Assembly (NCBI GenBank): GCA_030446765.1
Contig: JAUJMR010000001.1
Location: 859,389 to 897,249, forward strand
Source: Chloroflexia bacterium
GTDB taxonomy: Bacteria > Chloroflexota > Chloroflexia > Thermobaculales > Thermobaculaceae
Reading direction: 5' to 3'
DNA: 37,861 bases
Every line of letters starts with the position of its first letter. The stretch's first letter is position 1. A model generated the notes under the pieces. That model saw nothing but the letters and a program-made list of their open reading frames with translations, had not been told where the DNA came from and ran no database searches. The position numbers and the translations under genes are program-made. Positions 3,767 to 13,765 of this stretch are shown here, piece after piece.

Positions 3767-6309
3767 ATGTCAACAGCGCAGCACGTGAGAATCTTCCACA
3801 GATTGCTCATCTTTATGATGCTTGCGACCACCTTCGGGATCGCCGATGCATCGAGGGCAAGCGCGGCGGTCACAGCGGTCCCCGCTGCTCAGGGAACAGC
3901 CTTCCGCAACCCGATTCTTCCTACGATCCCCGGGAGCACGCGGAGGGTTGAGACGTTCGCCGATCCCGCCATCATCAAGGCGAAGGACGGCTACTATTAC
4001 GCCTATGGCACGAAGGACCCACGTTTCGACGGCGATACCTTCCACGTGATCCCGATCATCCGGTCGAACGACCTGGTGAACTGGACATACGTGGGCGACG
4101 CCTTCCCGAATGGCAACCCGCCAAGCGCGGACCCGAGCGCGGGAATCTTCGCACCCGACATTCGCTACATGAACGATCAGTACTACATGTACTACAGCAT
4201 CACGAACGTGGCGGGCGATACTGGTGGCGAGACCGGGCCCGGAGGTGATGACTCCGCGATCGCGGTGGCGACGAGTCCCAATCCGGCGGGTCCCTTTACG
4301 GACCGGGGTATTGTGGTGGAGCCGCAGGTGAACCCGTGCTGTGCCGACTTCCGTGCGACCATCGACCCCGCCATCCTGCCCCTACCCGACGGCCGGCATC
4401 TCATCTACTACGGCAGCTACTTCGGTGGCCTGGACGTGCGCGAGCTTACCCCTGACGGCCTTAGGGTCCTTGCCTGCGACTCAGCAGCGGGTCGCGATCG
4501 ATAACCGGTACGAGGGACCGTTCGTCATCTACCGCAACGGCTTCTACTACATGTTCGTGTCGGCTACCGACTGCTGCAACTTCGAGCTTACCGGCTACGA
4601 CGTGTTTGCCGGCCGCTCCCGCAGTCCGTTCGGTCCCTTCGTCGATCGTGAGGGCGACACCTTCGTGGAACCGCGCGTCGGCGGTGAGGTCGTACTAGCG
4701 CAGAACGGCAATCAGTTTGTCGGCGTCGGACACAACGCGGTCATCACCGACGACTCGGGCCAAGATTACATCGTGTACCACGGTATCGATCAACGCAACC
4801 CGGAGATAATCGAGCGGAGTGGCATACCCATCAACCGCCGATCGTTGATGATGGACCGGCTCGACTACATCGACGGCTTCCCGGTCGCACGTGCCGGCGC
4901 CGGTCCGTCGAACACTTCCCAGCCGGCACCCGTCACGCGTGGAGCCGTGGACGACGAGTTCAACCGCTCCACGGGAATCGGTGCCAGCTTCACACAGATG
5001 GGCGGCAAGTGGATCATCTACGACCCCGTTGGAACGAACCGCGGGGTGGTTCGCCAGAACTGGGCGGGCACAACGTCCGCGATGCTGATCAGCGACGGCT
5101 CGACCACAGCGAACTATCGCGCCGAAGGTGACCTGAGGCTGAACACCCTCGGCACGACCACACCGCGCCGCTACGGCCTGATCACGTCGTACATCGACCG
5201 GAACAACTACATTGCCGCCTACCTGCAACCGAACGCTGCCGGTACAGGCGGTTCTCTGGTGACGAACATTCGCGCGAATGGGGTCAACTCCTTCAAAACA
5301 ACGGCCCTGCCGGCGAATTTCAAGCACCGGGACTTCCACAACCTCGCGGTCACGCTGCGCGGTAACCAGGTGACGTTCGAGCTCACCGAGTCACGCCTGG
5401 AGGACCCGATCGAGATCCAGGTCCGCCAGCTTCCGCTGCCAACCCAGCAGGGAGTGGCGCTCGGCGCCGGCAGGGTGGGTTTCGCGACCCAGAACGTCTC
5501 CGCCGACTTCGACAACCTTAGCGCGGCCCAGCTGTTTACACCGGTGACGCGCCGGGTGCCGAACCAGGCACAGGGCGCACTCAACGAGCGGTACACAGAC
5601 GAGTTCAACGGCGGCCTGGACCCGGAGAACAACTGGCAGTACGTGCCCGGCCGGGTGCCGGCCGAGCCGAGCCAGGAGCAGGCAAACCCGCAGCCCGACA
5701 ATCCGTTCCAGGAGCGGCCAGGCTACTATCGGCAGCGGACCGACAACAGGGAACTAACCCGAGCTAACCCGCCACCCGATCGACTCGCGCATATCCTGGC
5801 CCAGGACGCACCCGCGGGTGACTTCACCGTGACTGTGAAGCTCGACTTCCCCTTGCCGGAGGAAGATGGCTTCTTCTTCTTCCAGCAGGCAGGCGTGTTC
5901 ATCTACGAGAACGACGACAAGTACGTTCGGCTCGACCATGTCGCGATCTTCAACACGCGCCAGATCGAGTTCGCCAAGGAGAAGCCGAGCCCCGCGGAGG
6001 GCGATCGAAGGGCCACCACGCCAGCGGCAGTTCGGTGGCACGGTGCTCGACAATCCCGAGCGGATAACGTGGCTCCGCATCGTCGCCAGGACGAACCCCA
6101 CGACCGGGGCGCAGACCTACACGGCCTACAGCAGCGTCGACGGCGTGCGATACGACCGTGGTGGGGCGTGGACGTTCGGGGCGACCAACAACGCCGGCGA
6201 CAGCCCGATGGTGAACCGCAAGATCGGTATCTCCGCCTTCGGTGGAGTTGATCCGAACCAGCAGTTCTTCGACGCGGACTTCGACTTCGTGCGGGTAACC
6301 CAGCCGTAG
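3767..6309 (+). CDS. Secreted GH43-family glycoside hydrolase, interrupted by two frameshifts
   Basis: Read with two corrections this is one protein of ~845 residues. A signal peptide covers residues 1-34. A GH43 five-bladed propeller follows, with candidate catalytic residues Asp66 (in 'FADPAII'), Asp200 (in 'IDPAIL') and Glu249 (in 'YEGPF'). Two concanavalin-like beta domains then start at 'DEFNRSTGIG' and 'DEFNGGLDPENNW'. Known members are arabinofuranosidases or beta-xylosidases acting on plant polysaccharide outside the cell. Frame moves by one extra base at GGG 4464-4466, between Asp200 and Glu249, and again at GGG 6010-6012. Dropping one G at each site restores 'GLRSLPATQQ' and 'EGDRRPPRQRQFGG'. 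Conservation of everything downstream argues for sequence errors or very recent lesions. Confidence 0.85.
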
Positions 6310-6572: not shown

Positions 6573-7474
6573 CTACATCCAGAGCAGGCCAGGCCACGGC
6601 ATCTTCAGGATCTCCTGACTGGCGTCTTCGACCGCGACAACCTCCAGACCTGCTTCCGCCACGGCCTCCAGATAGCCGGCGCGCCCATTGTGCGTAGCTG
6701 GGGCAGGTAGGCCGTTCCCGGCGCCCAGAACGTTGTCCGCCATCCCCGCGCCACGGCGTCCGGGTGAAAGTCCGTGATCAGCAGGTGGCCGCCCGGGCGC
6801 AGGACGCGCGCGCATTCCCGAACGGTTGGACGGAGGTCGGGCATGTGGCACAGCATCAGCGCGCTCACGACGAGGTCGAATGAAGCGTTCTCGAAGGGCA
6901 GTCCCCCGTCGATGGATGCCAGGTGAAACTCAATGTCCAGCCTTTCCGCGGTCGAGGCGTTGCGGGCAACGTCGAGCATCCCCGGCGATTGGTCTATCGC
7001 CGTCACGCGCACGCCCCGACGCGCGAGCCGCAGCGCGTGCCTGCCCGTGCCCGAGCCAACGTCGAGCGCGGTATCAAATGAGAGGCCATCCAGCAACTGC
7101 TGGACGCGCGGCTCCTCGATGGCGATAAGCGGGTTCTTCTCGATGTCATAGGTCCGAGCCCAAGTGTCATACCCCTCGACCATACCGATCTCCCGGTCCT
7201 CATACTCGGATTCGAGGAGCATGCACGTGCAGGAACGATCGAGCGCGGTGATGACGAGGAGCTCGGCGCCGTCGGGGAGGGGGTACATAGACGCGATGTC
7301 GTGACCGTAGCGTACCGCCCACTCATTGCCCTCGCGATCCTCGTCGGACCAGTCGCCGGCTTGGTGCCGGGCGAGGAAGGTGGACGGATTGAGATTGGCG
7401 GCTTCCAGCGCGGCGGCCGCGGCGGGGGAGACCGTTACGGTACCCAAGGGGAAGCGTGTCGTTGTCTGTGACAT
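6573..7474 (-). CDS. Class I SAM methyltransferase with an extra N-terminal domain, one frameshift
   Basis: ATG at 7474, eight bases after GAGGTC. Residues 1-90 are a separate small domain with a 'DRSCTCMLL' Cys motif that I cannot name. Residues ~95-300 are a UbiE/methyltransf_11-type fold: motif I 'ALDVGSGTGRHALRL' (136-150), an acidic 'AIDQSPGML', 'DLVVSALMLCHM' and 'RVLRPGGHLLITDF'. Substrate unknown. The frame breaks at the GGGG run 6700-6703. Adding one G lets 'PGTAYLP' continue into 'ATHNGRAGYLEAVAEAGLEV', ending at TAG 6573-6575. Without it the protein acquires a short unrelated tail ending at 6605. Two hairpins sit in the leader. Confidence 0.82.
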
Positions 7475-7839: not shown

Positions 7840-9465
7840 CTACGCCGGAGCATTCAGCGCCGGTTGTGCGCAGAGATCGCGGAGGGTGCTCAGCAGCCCT
7901 TCCAGGCTCTCCGGGGCGTTCTCACCCATGGTGCAGATCTGGATCCAGTTGCGCCGGACCAGGTACTCGCTCTTGTAGCTCAGCAGGTAGCCCTTCTCTT
8001 CGAGCTGGCTCCCCAGCCACACGGAGTTCAGCGCATCCGGCAACGCGATCGACGTCACGACGGGGGAGGTCTGGGGGCCGGAGCCGACGATGACCATGCC
8101 CAGCTCGTGCAACTGGGCGCGCAGCCAGCTGGAGCGCTCGCTCGCGGCCGTGCCAAGCTCGCTCGCTTTCACCCGCTCCACAGCAGCCTGCATCGCATAC
8201 AGGAGGTTGCTGGAATGGGTGAAGGGGATGCCGTCCGACACCGCGTACAGCCCTAGGTCGAGATAGCGGGGCAGAGTCTTGGACGGCAGTATCTCGTGGT
8301 TGTAGAACACCATGCACAGGCCCGGGAAAGCGCCGAGACCCTTGCCGCTTACGCCTGACGCCATGTGTACCCGCGAAAGATCCACCGGTATGGTCCCGAT
8401 AGAGCTGATGCAGTCCGCGCAGAGGGCGATCCCCTTTTCGTCGCAGAGACGCTGCAGCCCTTCGAGATCATTGAGCAGTCCGCTCGAAGTCTCGCAGTGG
8501 ACGGCCCAAAGCCACTCGATATCGGGGCGTGTCTCGATGGCCCGTGCCACTTCCTCGTGCGAAAGCGGTTCTCCCCAAGGGGCTCGAACGACATCGAACT
8601 GCAGTCCCGCGCGGGTCGCGTGGTCGATCAGCCGATCGCCGAACTCGCCGTTGCTGAGCACCATGCCCCTGCCGCTACGAAGCGATAGCTGCCCGGCGAT
8701 GGCATCGTTGGCGAGTGTGCCCGAGCCGAGCAGGATCTCAACGCGCCGGGAGCCGGTCAGGTCGCACAACAGTTGCTTGACGTGCTGGAAGTCCTGCTTG
8801 AACCCGTCCGCGCGGTGCGAGACCGGTGGCCGGCCAAACGCCTCGCGAACATCCGGCGCGATGCCGACAGGCCCCGGCAGCAGGTTCACCGGCTCGCGCA
8901 GCATCCCGATCGTTCCCGCCGATGGCGCGAAGATTCGGGCACGCTCACCGAACGACTCAGGGGTGAGGTACATGGGCTGGAAGGGGGTTTCCTCCGTGCC
9001 AACCATCGGGCCGAACTCCACGAACCCCAGGTGGTCGTACAGCTTTCGCTGCCGCACGGTCGCGGAAACGACGGCGAGGTCGTAGCGCTGCTGGGCGCAG
9101 TAACGGAAAAGCAACTTGCCCAGTCCCTTGAAGACGACACCGTTGCGGTGCCCCGGCTTGATGGAGAGCAGCCGGATCTCCACGATCTTCTTGTGCTTCG
9201 GCAGGTAGCTGTCGAGGTTTCCCAGCTTCAGGTCCAGGGAGAACGGCCGCCGGTCGCGCAGCGCCATCATGCCGACAAGCTCCTCGCCGCGTAGCGCGAT
9301 CAGGTACGCGTTCTCGCTGTGGTACTTGTCGACGAGCCGGCGATCCGGGTTGACCTCGTGCTGCGGAATCTCCTCCACGAAGGTGCTGTAGTTCAGCTCG
9401 TGGACCTGCTCGAACTCCCGTTCTTCGGATGCGACCTTGAAGGTCATTTGCGCCGAGGCTATCAT
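7840..9465 (-). CDS. GNAT acyltransferase fused to class V aminotransferase
   Basis: 541 residues from ATG at 9465 (AAGGAA site 8 bases upstream). Its ATGA overlaps the plsY stop, so translation is coupled. Residues ~5-170 are a GNAT-like acyltransferase ('VEIRLLSIKPGHRNGVVFKG', then 'LYDHLGFVEFG'), resembling N-acyl amino acid synthases of the FeeM type. Residues ~185-540 are a PLP-dependent class V (alanine-glyoxylate / aminoethylphosphonate transaminase-like) domain: 'NLLPGPVGIAPDVREAFGRP', Asp351 in 'CADCISSIG', and the probable PLP lysine Lys375 in 'GVSGKGLGA'. The fusion implies that one protein makes an amino compound and acylates it, or that the two steps are linked. Substrates are unknown. 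Confidence 0.85.
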   Translation of the reverse strand: MIASAQMTFKVASEEREFEQVHELNYSTFVEEIPQHEVNPDRRLVDKYHSENAYLIALRGEELVGMMALRDRRPFSLDLKLGNLDSYLPKHKKIVEIRLLSIKPGHRNGVVFKGLGKLLFRYCAQQRYDLAVVSATVRQRKLYDHLGFVEFGPMVGTEETPFQPMYLTPESFGERARIFAPSAGTIGMLREPVNLLPGPVGIAPDVREAFGRPPVSHRADGFKQDFQHVKQLLCDLTGSRRVEILLGSGTLANDAIAGQLSLRSGRGMVLSNGEFGDRLIDHATRAGLQFDVVRAPWGEPLSHEEVARAIETRPDIEWLWAVHCETSSGLLNDLEGLQRLCDEKGIALCADCISSIGTIPVDLSRVHMASGVSGKGLGAFPGLCMVFYNHEILPSKTLPRYLDLGLYAVSDGIPFTHSSNLLYAMQAAVERVKASELGTAASERSSWLRAQLHELGMVIVGSGPQTSPVVTSIALPDALNSVWLGSQLEEKGYLLSYKSEYLVRRNWIQICTMGENAPESLEGLLSTLRDLCAQPALNAPA

Positions 9466-10094
9466 CGCCAGATTCCTTTCGAGGCGTGCGACCTTGTTAC
9501 CTGGTCGTCCTGGCCGGGCTGTCTGGCCCTCCACATCTCTATAACATTCTCCCTGTGCGCGAAGAGCACCAGCGCCGCGAGCGCGGCCACCTGCGGCACA
9601 CGCTGTGTCGGCCCACGCAGCACAATCGCGACGACCGGCGCCAAGGCGACGCAAACCAGCCCACTTCGCGTGAACCGGCGGAGCACCGCAAACACCGGCA
9701 CGAATAGCGCGATGATGCCGAGTGCGACCGATAGATCGAGCACCAGAAGCGTACCGCCCGCGGTCGCGGCTCCTTTACCTCCGCGAAAGCTTAGCTGTAC
9801 CGGCCAGACATGCCCCGCGACGACCGCCAGCGCGACGACGGTAACTTCCCACGCTTGTAGCCCGTAGTATACCGCTATTGCGCATGCGAGCGCACCTTTG
9901 CCGATGTCGGCGGCCAGCGTGAGCACCGCGCCCCACGTTCCCAACTCGCGGCGCACGTTCAGCGTGCCGGCGTTCCGGCTGCCCACCTGGCGGATGTCGG
10001 TACCGGTACGGAGGCGCACGAGGTAGTAGCCGGTGGCGAAGCAGCCGATCACATAGCCCAGGATGACCAGCGCAGGAAGCGCCAAGCTATCCAT
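9462..10094 (-). CDS. plsY: PlsY-like acyl-phosphate glycerol-3-phosphate acyltransferase
   Basis: 210 residues, ATG at 10094. An integral membrane protein with about five to six hydrophobic segments, showing the three PlsY motifs: 'GSRNAGTLNVRRELG' (motif 1, with GTLN in place of the usual GATN), 'GHVWPVQLSFRGGKGAAT' (motif 2, the acyl-phosphate and phosphate-binding loop) and 'HRENVIEMWRAR' (motif 3). PlsY transfers an acyl chain from acyl-phosphate to glycerol-3-phosphate at the cytoplasmic membrane. Sitting between a nucleotidyltransferase and an acyltransferase-aminotransferase, and overlapping both, it may be a specialised paralog rather than the housekeeping enzyme. Motif 1 divergence supports that weakly. 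Confidence 0.88.
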   Translation of the reverse strand: MDSLALPALVILGYVIGCFATGYYLVRLRTGTDIRQVGSRNAGTLNVRRELGTWGAVLTLAADIGKGALACAIAVYYGLQAWEVTVVALAVVAGHVWPVQLSFRGGKGAATAGGTLLVLDLSVALGIIALFVPVFAVLRRFTRSGLVCVALAPVVAIVLRGPTQRVPQVAALAALVLFAHRENVIEMWRARQPGQDDQVTRSHASKGIWR

Positions 10095-10932
10095 GCGCCG
10101 GGCTCCCGTGGATGGGGGCGGTTTCGGCGAGACCATGCAGGCGGCGGTCGAGCTGCTCGAGAAGCGGCTCCGGCAGCGCCAGCGCGTGCCGTGTCCCAAG
10201 GTCGGCCATCAACTCCCTGCCCCACTCCCAGGCATAGCGGTATGCCGTCCGCAGGGCCTCGTCGTCGAGGGCAGCGGTACATGCGCGGTATCGGGCGAGC
10301 GCGGCGGGGGAGAGGTCCCGCTCCAGCAGGCGCGATGGTGTCGGCCAGTGCGCGACGCTTCGCTCCTGAAGGCGCACCAGCCACAGCAGGTAGCGCCCCA
10401 TGATGCCGAGGAGCTCCAGTGCCCGGACCAGCTCACCACGCTCCAGGACGTGCGAGCCGAAGAGCGTCCAGTTCACGAAGTTGTCGCACAGAAAGCGCGT
10501 GCGCTCCGCGGTATCGCGCTCGGGCACGTAGCCCACGACCTTGCGCAGGTGATTCGTCAGCCGCCCGGTTCGGTCCAGCAGAAGCGTGCGGTCGAGGGAT
10601 GGCAGCGTATCAGTCTCGCCCCAGGATTCGACCTGCGCCATGTCCGACGCGCGCTCGAAGTGGAACTCGCCGCGGACGAGATTGTCGTAGATCGCGGTGC
10701 CGTTGCCAAACTCATTCGTGAAGTACAGCGCGACGGGCGCGATCCTGCTAGCCCACTCGGCCTGGTCGACATCCGCGTGAGCATCATCATGAAAGAAGAG
10801 TGCGACCTCGATGTCGGAGTGCTCATCGCCCTCGTCGCACGCCCACGAGCCGTACATCATCGCGGCCTCAAGACGGTCGTCCGCGTGGCACACCGCACGC
10901 GCCCGCTCGATCATTCTCTGCTGTACGATCAT
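10087..10932 (-). CDS. Lincosamide nucleotidyltransferase-like protein (Lnu(F)/Lnu(B) type)
   Basis: 281 residues, close to the ~270 of Lnu(F). The N-terminus carries the polymerase-beta-type nucleotidyltransferase signature 'MMYGSWACDEGDEHSDIEV' (Gly-Ser followed by the metal-binding Asp-x-Glu). The C-terminal helical region matches Lnu features such as 'LLWLVRLQERSVAHWPTPSR'. Known relatives adenylylate lincomycin or clindamycin. In this operon setting, with plsY overlapping by 8 bases, another small hydroxylated substrate is equally possible. The start ATG at 10932 has no ribosome-binding site but sits 6 bases after a perfect -10 box, suggesting a leaderless transcript. Confidence 0.8.
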   Translation of the reverse strand: MIVQQRMIERARAVCHADDRLEAAMMYGSWACDEGDEHSDIEVALFFHDDAHADVDQAEWASRIAPVALYFTNEFGNGTAIYDNLVRGEFHFERASDMAQVESWGETDTLPSLDRTLLLDRTGRLTNHLRKVVGYVPERDTAERTRFLCDNFVNWTLFGSHVLERGELVRALELLGIMGRYLLWLVRLQERSVAHWPTPSRLLERDLSPAALARYRACTAALDDEALRTAYRYAWEWGRELMADLGTRHALALPEPLLEQLDRRLHGLAETAPIHGSPAHG

Positions 10933-10938
10933 CCGCCT

Positions 10939-10944
10939 ATTATA
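10939..10944 (-). promoter_or_regulatory. -10 box giving a probable leaderless transcript
   Basis: TATAAT on the minus strand, six bases upstream of the ATG at 10932. The expected initiation point coincides with the start codon. No good -35 box is found at 16-18 bases. Confidence 0.5.
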
Positions 10945-11032
10945 AGTAGGGCGCTCCCATCCGTGGTAACCTGGGGGCTCAGGGAGTGACCTGTGGTCCG
11001 ACTCGGCACCAACGGGTGCCGAGAGCGTGGGG

Positions 11033-12496
11033 CTACGAATAGGTCAGCACCTCGCCGGACGTGTCCGATGAGGAGACAGGCGAGAACTCAAAGCCGCCGA
11101 GGCGCGGATCGAGGACGGAGTGGCCAAGGCGGGCACCCGCCTCCATCCGGCGGATGAGGTCCACCGCATCCTCCATGTCCGCCGCGGGCTCGAGCGGCGC
11201 GGGGGAGTGCACGCGCAGGTCATCGAGGGTCACGCCGTCGAGCAGCCGCCTACCGTCGTTATCGAGTGCGACCCGCGGGATGAGCACCAGGTCCGCGCCA
11301 TCCGTGCCCGGCAAGGCGGCAAGCAGGTCTTCGCCGACGAGGAGTCCCGAGACGTTCGTGTCGCTGCCATAGAACGCGTTGTCGACCGGCTGCACTCGAA
11401 CGGTCAGGCCCGCACATTCTTCCTCCATCTCGCGCGCTACGCTTTCGAGCACCGGCGCGGCGAGCGTGCCGCAGAGCACAATGACGGTGCGCGGGCGTGA
11501 GAGTCCGCGCGGCAGCGTCCGCCGGGCGTGCTTCCAGCCTTCGAGCATGTGCCGCACCATGCCGATCCCGTTCTCGAGCTGCGGGAAGCCCTCATAGGTG
11601 GCTGCGCCCGGCACCTTTCGTCCGGCCAGCAGGTAGAACTCGTCGGAGGCGAACACGAAGGTCGTGCCGTGCTTACGCCGCATCCGGGCCCTACGCTCCT
11701 CCACCTGTCGCACGACGCGGCGGGCCTCCTCCGGGCTGTAGGAGCGCACGGGCGTCGCGGCCTGCGCGGCGATGATGCGGTTGTGCCGCCCGCCCGCGTG
11801 GACGCTGCCGCCGCGGAACTTGGTCAGCCCCACGGGAACGACCGCGACGGAGAGCACCGTGGGGTACAGGGCAGCAAGGTCGTCGAGCGTTCGCTCCAGC
11901 GCCTCACCGTCGTTGAGGCCGGGACAGGCGACGATCTGCGTGTGCACCTGGATGCCGATCTCTCGCAGCCGGGCGAGCTGTTCCAGAATGTCCGGTGCGC
12001 CCGGGTAGCCGAGCAGCTTGCGGCGCAGGTCCGGGTCGGTCGCGTGCACCGATACGTACAGCGGGCTGAGGCGTTGTTCTTTCAGCCTGCGCCAGTCCAT
12101 CGGCGTCAGGTTCGTGAACGTCACGAAGTTGCCGAAGAGGAAGCTATAGCGGAAGTCGTCGTCGCGGATGTACAGGCTCTCGCGCATGCCTTCCTGGTTC
12201 TGATCGACGAAGCAGAAGGGGCAGGCGTTCGCACACTGGCGAATTGGGTTGAAGGTCGGGCGGCCGAACTCGATGCCGAGCGACTCATCCGGCTCCTTCT
12301 CCACCTCGCAGTAGAAGTGATCATCGCCCCGTTCCACGAGCAGCTCGACGGCGTCGGTTGCGGAGTAAAAGCGGTAGTCGATCACGTCCCGCAGGGGGCG
12401 CTTGTTCACGGTGCGCAGGATGTCGCCCGGCTGGAGCTCCAGCTCCTCCGCGATGCTGCCCGGCTGCACGCGCACGATCTCTCCGCCGTGGATCAT
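11033..12496 (-). CDS. PDZ / radical SAM / DUF512 iron-sulfur protein
   Basis: 487 residues. ATG at 12496 overlaps the upstream PHP gene stop as ATGA; the longer reading at 12553 would intrude into that gene. Residues 1-70 are a PDZ-like domain ('GSIAEELELQPGDILRTVN'). A cysteine motif 'CANACPFCFVDQ' near residue 90 fits the radical SAM CxxxCxxC pattern for a 4Fe-4S cluster. The radical SAM barrel and a C-terminal DUF512 domain follow ('IVACPGLNDGEAL', 'FYGSDTNVSGLLVGEDL'). Members are common in Clostridia, Chloroflexi and cyanobacteria; the reaction is not established. Coupled translation with a PHP phosphoesterase suggests the two act together. Confidence 0.9.
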   Translation of the reverse strand: MIHGGEIVRVQPGSIAEELELQPGDILRTVNKRPLRDVIDYRFYSATDAVELLVERGDDHFYCEVEKEPDESLGIEFGRPTFNPIRQCANACPFCFVDQNQEGMRESLYIRDDDFRYSFLFGNFVTFTNLTPMDWRRLKEQRLSPLYVSVHATDPDLRRKLLGYPGAPDILEQLARLREIGIQVHTQIVACPGLNDGEALERTLDDLAALYPTVLSVAVVPVGLTKFRGGSVHAGGRHNRIIAAQAATPVRSYSPEEARRVVRQVEERRARMRRKHGTTFVFASDEFYLLAGRKVPGAATYEGFPQLENGIGMVRHMLEGWKHARRTLPRGLSRPRTVIVLCGTLAAPVLESVAREMEEECAGLTVRVQPVDNAFYGSDTNVSGLLVGEDLLAALPGTDGADLVLIPRVALDNDGRRLLDGVTLDDLRVHSPAPLEPAADMEDAVDLIRRMEAGARLGHSVLDPRLGGFEFSPVSSSDTSGEVLTYS

Positions 12497-13173
12497 GTTA
12501 GACCCACTTTCCTGGCGACCTTCGCCCATGTGCTGACGAAGTGCACGGGCCACGGGCTGAGCCCCCCGCCGATCATCCCCTCACGCACGGCCTGGGCGAA
12601 GTCACGCGGCCCATCGAACGGCCGCAGCGCGGTATACGCGGTGCCGAGCTCGCCGTAGCAGTGGGCATCGGAGCCACCGGTGACGGGCAAGTCGTGCTCC
12701 CGTGCGTACGCGAGGGCGCGGTCGTTGTCTTCGGGGCGGGTCATTCGAGCGTTGAATCCCTCGATCATATCGACGAGCCCGAGGGACACCAGCCGGTCGA
12801 GCGCGGGTGTTGCGAGCCTGCCGCCCCGCAGACTGTCGAACGGGTGCGGCACGTTCACGACGCCGCCCTGCGCGCGGATGCGCTCCGCCGTCTCCTCGGG
12901 GGAGAGCCCGCGCGGGATGTGCTGACTCAGGAAGTACCCGATAACCTCACCCTCGGTGGTCTTGATCTCCTCCGACGGGATGACGGTGAAGCCATCGGGG
13001 GCAGCGGCCGCCACTTCCAGCGCGCCGTCGAACTCGTTGTGATCGGTTATGGCGAGCACGCCGATGCCGCGCTCCTGACAGGTGCGGATCATGCGCTCGG
13101 GGCGCATCCGGCAATCGTGGGAGTGGTAGGTGTGGCAGTGCAGCTCGGCACGCAGCGGAAGTTCGGCAATCAT
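12493..13173 (-). CDS. PHP-domain metal-dependent hydrolase
   Basis: 226 residues from ATG at 13173, behind a G-rich ribosome-binding site. Metal-ligand motifs of the PHP fold are in order: 'ELHCHTYHSHD' (residues ~9-19), 'ITDHNEFDG', 'EEIKTTEGEVIGYF', 'NVPHPFDSLRGG' and the closing 'GGSDAHCYGELG'. This is the short, stand-alone PHP type related to YciV/histidinol-phosphatase proteins, typically nucleotide or phosphoester hydrolases using three metals. It is the first gene of a two-gene operon with the DUF512 protein. Confidence 0.9.
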   Translation of the reverse strand: MIAELPLRAELHCHTYHSHDCRMRPERMIRTCQERGIGVLAITDHNEFDGALEVAAAAPDGFTVIPSEEIKTTEGEVIGYFLSQHIPRGLSPEETAERIRAQGGVVNVPHPFDSLRGGRLATPALDRLVSLGLVDMIEGFNARMTRPEDNDRALAYAREHDLPVTGGSDAHCYGELGTAYTALRPFDGPRDFAQAVREGMIGGGLSPWPVHFVSTWAKVARKVGLT

Positions 13174-13248
13174 ACGCCCCCATGGTAGGGAACGCCCGGC
13201 CCCCGCGTCAAACGAGGCGATGCATGGGGATGGCCTGCGAACTATGTC

Positions 13249-13264
13249 CCTATTAATTAATAGG
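13249..13264. repeat. AT-rich perfect palindrome
   Basis: CCTATTAATTAATAGG is a perfect 16-base inverted repeat in otherwise GC-rich sequence, 76 bases upstream of the PHP start. It has the size and symmetry of a dimeric repressor operator. No cognate regulator can be named. Confidence 0.45.
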
Positions 13265-13316
13265 AGTTGAGACGGTTCGGTTGGGCGCATTTCGGAGGGA
13301 AGTTTAGGAATTGCTC

Positions 13317-13336
13317 CCGCCGCAGGGCGGTTTTTA
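13317..13336 (+). terminator. Possible intrinsic terminator, low confidence
   Basis: A short stem CCGCC/GGCGG with a 4-base loop is followed by TTTTT (13331-13335). The stem is only 5 bp and no plus-strand gene is seen upstream. The downstream GCGGC (13337-13341) could pair alternatively with the GCCGC at the left of the stem. Confidence 0.25.
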
Positions 13337-13458
13337 GCGGCAGAACGTTTACCGGTAGTTTCGTGACTGGTGGGGCCGTATGGTGGCTGGAGGGGCAGGT
13401 TAAACATATGCAGGCTGGTTGCGGCGTCGCCTCGTGCCCAACCCGCCTGGAGTGCGTG

Positions 13459-13588
13459 ATACGCAATCCGCTTGAACCGTAATGCGTGTCATCCCGAACG
13501 TAGTGAGGGGATCCGCATCCTTGTACCACGGATTCCTCGCAGGCTCGGAATGACAGTTGCCCTACCGTTCAGCCGGAGTCCGCATTGC
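13459..13588. repeat. Interspersed palindromic repeat, copy 3
   Basis: Complete copy. Outer arms are 'ATACGCAATCCGCTTGAACC' (from 13459) and 'CCGTTCAGCCGGAGTCCGCA' (from about 13564). Inner arms are 'GTCATCCCGAACGTAGTGAG' (from 13488) and 'CGGATTCCTCGCAGGCTCGG', then AATGAC. It matches copy 2 at 3273-3398 across both outer and inner arms. It lies in non-coding sequence between the PHP operon and the broken secreted-protein gene. Confidence 0.8.
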
Positions 13589-13765
13589 GTGTGCGGCAGT
13601 ATACAGAATGTGAGCAGGGAGGGAAGGGCGCGCCGGTGGCTCGTGGGGCACGGGGGCAGGTACGGAGACCTGCCCCTACACAGGTCAACGTCATCGCCTA
13701 CTGATGTGGGACTGTCCCCTTGCGCTCGCCCGGAGGATCAGCGACGAAGCGTGCTCCTTAGGTCT

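Follow-up and report, generated by a model that had tools for sequence, protein, structure and literature searches.

A PlsY paralogue paired with a GNAT–aminotransferase fusion across distant bacterial groups, and its possible role in amide phospholipid synthesis

In bacterial phospholipid synthesis, PlsY is the committed enzyme and is regarded as acting on a single substrate. Here we analysed a 37,861-nucleotide stretch of a Chloroflexia bacterium genome (GenBank assembly GCA_030446765.1, contig JAUJMR010000001.1, positions 859,389 to 897,249; the window), in which a plsY paralogue, named plsY' in this study, lies between a lincosamide-nucleotidyltransferase-like (Lnu-like) gene and a gene that fuses a GNAT acyltransferase domain to a class V aminotransferase dependent on pyridoxal phosphate (PLP). 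The pair formed by plsY' and the fusion is very likely a conserved lipid-biosynthesis module. More tentatively, at a probability of roughly 40%, we propose that an undescribed phospholipid series, with an amide in place of the C2 ester of phosphatidic acid, is made in several bacterial lineages by the fusion, which would form serinol phosphate, and a dedicated PlsY paralogue acylating a 2-N-acyl analogue of glycerol-3-phosphate (G3P).

Two kinds of described acyltransferase system resemble the pair in part. In OlsB–OlsA and GlsB–GlsA (ornithine, glutamine and glycine lipids), a GNAT N-acyltransferase of the same superfamily adjoins an O-acyltransferase gene, as in 19 genomes of this study; here the O-acyltransferase, a membrane enzyme, is of PlsY type with a phosphate clamp and not PlsC-like as OlsA is, and the GNAT is fused to a PLP enzyme. 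The second is the N-acyl synthase of Gemella, which is said to bear an aminotransferase domain too and for which we know of no plsY partner. As far as the accounts of Cohen et al. (2017) given in PMC11271093 and PMC10666787 go, this enzyme makes N-acyl serinol and is thus alike in being an N-acyl synthase for a serinol compound such as we propose, but its product is monoacylated and unphosphorylated, unlike the diacylated, phosphorylated product proposed here. N-acyl serinol, the nearest known product, is a bioactive metabolite of the human microbiome.

For the aminotransferase half, the closest comparison is by reaction and not by any demonstrated kinship: Cj1437 and the N-terminal domain of RtxA, two dihydroxyacetone phosphate (DHAP) aminotransferases, form serinol phosphate from DHAP (PMC11800397, PMC3222319), the reaction that we propose for the fusion, and neither is tied to acyl transfer as the fusion would be. 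A literature search, with subscription papers mostly outside its reach, returned no direct description of a plsY–GNAT–aminotransferase module. The features of the window that make up the pair are:

9462..10094, minus strand: plsY', 210 aa; PF02660 at 135 bits (cut-off 24.1); phosphate clamp S39, R49, K107 and N183 kept, as is H180
7840..9465, minus strand: GNAT–aminotransferase fusion, 541 aa; homologues at ~30 further loci
8905..9465, minus strand: N-terminal GNAT domain of the fusion, a predicted FeeM/LuxI/OlsB-like long-chain N-acyltransferase (FeeM and Acetyltransf_5 profiles; structure model)
7861..8892, minus strand: C-terminal class V aminotransferase domain of the fusion; PLP lysine K375 (SGKGLG) kept, Gln509 at the substrate-carboxylate Arg position

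A PlsY clade that accompanies the fusion

The searches turned up fusion homologues in Chloroflexota, in 11 of 246 sampled Planctomycetota, in 8 of 247 Acidobacteriota, in 4 of 148 from the class of a SAR202 genome, in deltaproteobacteria and on a Cytobacillus (Bacillota) megaplasmid; a search of viral contigs and phages found none. The homologue of Cytobacillus spongiae is LS684_RS21500. A plsY gene lies directly upstream and on the same strand of the fusion, or of an unfused or GNAT-only form of it, in 19 genomes that span Chloroflexota, Planctomycetota, Acidobacteriota, one deltaproteobacterium and Bacillota. The unfused form occurs in one SAR202 genome (locus L032), with GNAT and aminotransferase as separate adjacent genes downstream of plsY, and the GNAT-only form in genome G219, where plsY is followed by the GNAT gene and then by gatC and gatA; a search of G219 for an aminotransferase of the family recovered generic members only, the best at 163 bits against ~490–517 for true members. 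Pairwise distances of PlsY' and fusion correlate (r 0.93, reached in 0 of 2000 permutations), with shared species history contributing to this value.

All 19 pair genomes hold at least two PlsY-family genes, a count in which the second copy of G379 is a partial match with stops and both Cytobacillus copies sit on the 690-kb record. In the window's own genome, a second, canonical plsY lies on the same contig ~139 kb away (G000:C92:729691-730236), and plsY' can accordingly be rejected as a sole-copy housekeeping gene, a possibility for which an earlier note on this DNA had named the presence of such a copy as the check. That the three genes of the window are unrelated housekeeping and resistance genes adjacent by chance would fit the confinement of the Lnu-like gene to one genus, but the recurrence of plsY' beside the fusion in 19 genomes of distant groups, each with a separate PlsY-family gene elsewhere, makes this extremely improbable, and chance adjacency of plsY' and the fusion was rejected on the same grounds; the Lnu-like gene, in contrast, may be a chance neighbour.

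The partnership is frequent, not obligate. Thirteen genomes carry the fusion without an adjacent plsY', and 12 of these have a single PF02660 gene. The earlier note had raised the prospect of a fusion widespread without its neighbours, and the outcome is divided: plsY' often stays adjacent, in the 19 genomes, and is missing beside the fusion in the 13, while the Lnu-like gene keeps its place in three genomes only. A more divergent branch of GNAT–aminotransferase fusions (L078, L079, L080 and L107) has no adjacent plsY, and in three related genomes the fusion (L101 9177-10640, L102 5878-7365, L103 5577-7049) adjoins a two-domain polyphosphate kinase 2 gene and not plsY.

The paired PlsY proteins are also distinct in sequence. 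In a tree that is unrooted and whose comparison rows were drawn from the same genome set, a single branch supported at 100/100 separates the 18 paired rows from 38 others, and at every locus examined the genes of this PlsY' clade adjoin the fusion or its GNAT half. The window protein aligns end to end by profile with the solved structure of aaPlsY (5xj5). It shares with aaPlsY the 7-transmembrane acyl-phosphate acyltransferase family, the phosphate clamp and His177; a housekeeping identity was rejected, as PlsY' scores 129.4 bits against TIGR00023 (cut-off 137.2), belongs to a separate clade as a paralogue of the canonical copy, and lacks Ser142.

In aaPlsY, the phosphate of G3P is contacted by Ser35, Arg45, Lys104 and Asn180 and its C2 hydroxyl by Ser142 and His177, with Thr41 (acyl-phosphate carbonyl) and His92 assigned to the acyl phosphate (PMC5700162). 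The PlsY' clade retains Ser35 (18/18), Arg45 (17/18), Lys or Arg at 104 (18/18), Asn180 (13/18) and His177 (18/18). The position of Ser142, in contrast, is Ser in none of 18 (14 Gly, 2 Ala, 1 Leu, 1 Phe; Gly145 in the window) but in 30 of the 36 other PlsY copies that cover it, and the exceptions among these come from highly divergent paralogues or from a fragment. The alignment register here is sound, because the Lys104-to-Ser142 spacing is equal in nearly all rows. The motif 1 change noted earlier (GTLN for GATN) is present in the window, with Leu45 at the position of Thr41, but is not clade-wide: PlsY' proteins mostly read GARN, with Arg 11, Thr 4, Leu 2 and Ser 1 at this position (n = 18). 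Judged by the aaPlsY assignments, the change in this motif is predicted to concern the acyl donor, not G3P. The SAR202 genome G384 (L032, L043, L054-L058) has seven PlsY-family genes, several of them without canonical phosphate-clamp residues.

These observations also bear on whether the two proteins act together. The fusion might make a free N-acyl serinol signal as in Gemella, with plsY' separately using ordinary or altered G3P, and both the N-acyl serinol attributed to the Gemella enzyme in the accounts cited above and the 13 genomes with the fusion alone would suit such a division. We regard it as quite unlikely, since the pairing across groups, the single PlsY' clade, the correlated distances and a pocket that has specifically lost its contact to the C2 hydroxyl all point to a shared pathway.

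The fusion protein and a proposed route to an amide lipid

The GNAT domain of the window matches FeeM (E 1e-7, 35.7 bits, cut-off 27) and the OlsB-type profile Acetyltransf_5 (28.4 bits, cut-off 22.4), and both profiles match this domain in 20 of 20 family members tested. Its best sequence matches in the PDB are acyl-homoserine-lactone synthases. A model of the domain (predicted local distance difference test, pLDDT, 83) gave the best query coverage to LasI, FeeM and MesI, at template modelling scores of 0.67–0.68, with ordinary GNAT acetyltransferases standing above these three when the search was ranked by E-value; the full-length fusion as modelled by AlphaFold is of modest quality (pLDDT 71) and served for fold class only. 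The domain thus resembles long-chain N-acyl synthases such as FeeM and LasI in sequence and model, and is predicted to be an N-acyltransferase.

The C-terminal domain adopts the AGT/AEPT fold (1vjo, E 3.4e-22). Every fusion-family aminotransferase with a complete C terminus has Gln in place of the Arg of the R-[IV]-G site, the residue by which AGT and AEPT bind the carboxylate of their substrate; as a control, 19 of 19 generic class V enzymes taken from related genomes carry Arg there. Identity with PhnW was rejected, the best NCBIfam match (PhnW-AepZ) reaching 143.8 bits against a cut-off of 360.8.

Loss of this residue weakens the case for lipids of the ornithine or glycine kind, in which the aminotransferase would supply an amino acid, the GNAT would N-acylate it as OlsB does and PlsY' would O-acylate a hydroxy-acyl chain as OlsA does. 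The match of all 20 GNAT domains to the OlsB family speaks for such lipids, as does the known two-step logic of a GNAT paired with an O-acyltransferase (PMC11631085). The residue for binding an amino-acid carboxylate is missing from the aminotransferase, however, PlsY' keeps a phosphate clamp that the pathway would not need, and its known O-acyltransferases are PlsC-like, not PlsY; we consider it unlikely. Still less probable is another C2-modified G3P-like acceptor, or other PLP chemistry (phosphonate or lyase-type) feeding a different acyl-amino lipid. The closest NCBIfam model is indeed a 2-aminoethylphosphonate aminotransferase, albeit far under its cut-off, and the Arg to Gln change may signal atypical chemistry, but the neighbours examined included no recognisable phosphonate gene and serinol phosphate matches the PlsY' residue pattern more directly.

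Serinol phosphate is the simplest acceptor because the G3P-like phosphate grip is kept, C2 differs, and the product of the PLP enzyme would be N-acylated. From the gene pairing, the PlsY' clade, the active-site residues and the fold and family assignments we infer the following substrates, order of steps and product. The PLP domain would transaminate DHAP to serinol phosphate (2-amino-glycerol-3-phosphate), the fused GNAT domain would N-acylate this with a long acyl chain, probably from acyl carrier protein (acyl-ACP), and PlsY' would O-acylate the C1 hydroxyl that is still free, using acyl phosphate from PlsX. The product, 1-O-acyl-2-N-acyl-serinol phosphate, would be an amide analogue of phosphatidic acid and might feed into head-group synthesis or, after dephosphorylation, become a ceramide-like lipid. 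In genomes with the fusion alone, another O-acyltransferase might serve, or the pathway might end at the N-acyl product. We hold this exact substrate route, from DHAP to the amide analogue, at slightly short of an even chance. The more general suggestion of the earlier note, that the fusion and the PlsY paralogue yield an acylated amino compound or aminolipid, is supported.

Several points weigh against the serinol phosphate route. The replacement of Thr41, by Arg or Leu in most PlsY' proteins, means that the acyl donor may differ, and aaPlsY is badly impaired by Ala at this position. It is difficult to see how Glu or Ala could be the amino donor once the carboxylate Arg is lost, although a different basic residue, for example the near-invariant R505, may take over that role. 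Nor do the three activities always occur together, since G219 has plsY' and the GNAT without a family aminotransferase, and the 13 genomes with an unpaired fusion count in the same direction. Finally, what would link the Gemella synthase to the fusion is its reported product.

PlsX, the source of acyl phosphate, was found in 18 of 18 genomes tested, and genes near the pair fit lipid metabolism as judged by their families. LplT-PlsC-AMP-ligase fusion proteins are encoded upstream in L027 and L031, from two distant groups; L028 has an AMP-ligase-ACP-PlsC protein and L075 a PlsC-like gene as neighbour. On the Cytobacillus megaplasmid (L024), a TMEM164-family gene (6622-7338) directly precedes plsY' and an LTA-synthase/sulfatase-family gene (9593-11443) directly follows the fusion. 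The pair would follow the known logic of an N-acyltransferase with an O-acyltransferase, and there is a reasonable chance that it makes a new phospholipid class. A PlsY paralogue clade that keeps the phosphate grip without the C2-hydroxyl contact, paired with the fusion across distant groups, predicts a phospholipid-like amide lipid, and such a lipid should resist phospholipases that cut the C2 ester.

The Lnu-like gene, transcription and a neighbouring frame

Upstream of plsY', the window holds three further features of the same strand:

10087..10932, minus strand: Lnu-like gene, 281 aa; PF21418 at E 3.4e-32; LnuF model at 231.8 bits
10939..10944, minus strand: candidate promoter (-10) TATAAT, 6 nt ahead of the Lnu-like start codon; shared by the three genomes of the genus
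11034-10985, minus strand: stable GC-rich hairpin 3' of the upstream TIGR03279 radical-SAM gene; z -2.7

The three minus-strand genes run 10932-10087, 10094-9462 and 9465-7840, with an overlap of 8 nt between the Lnu-like gene and plsY' (ATGGATAG) and of 4 nt between plsY' and the fusion (ATGA). Coordinates and overlaps agree with those first reported for this DNA, as do the family calls for all three genes when judged by profile searches. Two further genomes of the genus retain the order Lnu-like gene, plsY', fusion at 84–99% identity, and purifying selection acts on each of the three genes, with ratios of nonsynonymous to synonymous substitution (dN/dS) of 0.16–0.28 for the Lnu-like gene, 0.21–0.37 for plsY' and 0.03–0.06, the strongest constraint, for the fusion. 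The TATAAT at 10944-10939 (minus strand), which a generic promoter scan did not pick up, suggests an operon promoter giving a near-leaderless mRNA. It is probable that the operon forms a transcription unit of its own, given the hairpin after the TIGR03279 gene and the conserved TATAAT before the first ATG.

The Lnu-like protein aligns without gaps to LinB (3jyy) over residues 1–261 and shares the motifs GS...SDIE and GEFHF with the lincosamide nucleotidyltransferases LnuB and LnuF. It differs from them in its setting in a lipid operon and in a score that reaches, for any Lnu type, roughly half of the curated cut-off or less; LnuF identity was rejected on this basis (curated cut-off 450 bits). 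The gene stands beside the pair in three genomes, all of the window's own genus, and was unmatched in every other fetched locus, which excludes it as a general member of the pathway. Nucleotidyl transfer as a pathway step, as envisaged earlier, is consequently not supported in general. To a conserved two-gene core, this genus has added the Lnu-like gene, whose enzyme may act in lipid nucleotidylation, in drug resistance or in another role.

Elsewhere in the window, on the plus strand (3767-6309), a secreted glycosidase-like gene, of GH43 type by eye, is spread over three overlapping frames (3767-4504, 4341-6251 and 5866-6309). The relative L025 has it as one 842-aa frame (11094-13622), and the split in the window would reflect either assembly frameshifts or a pseudogene.

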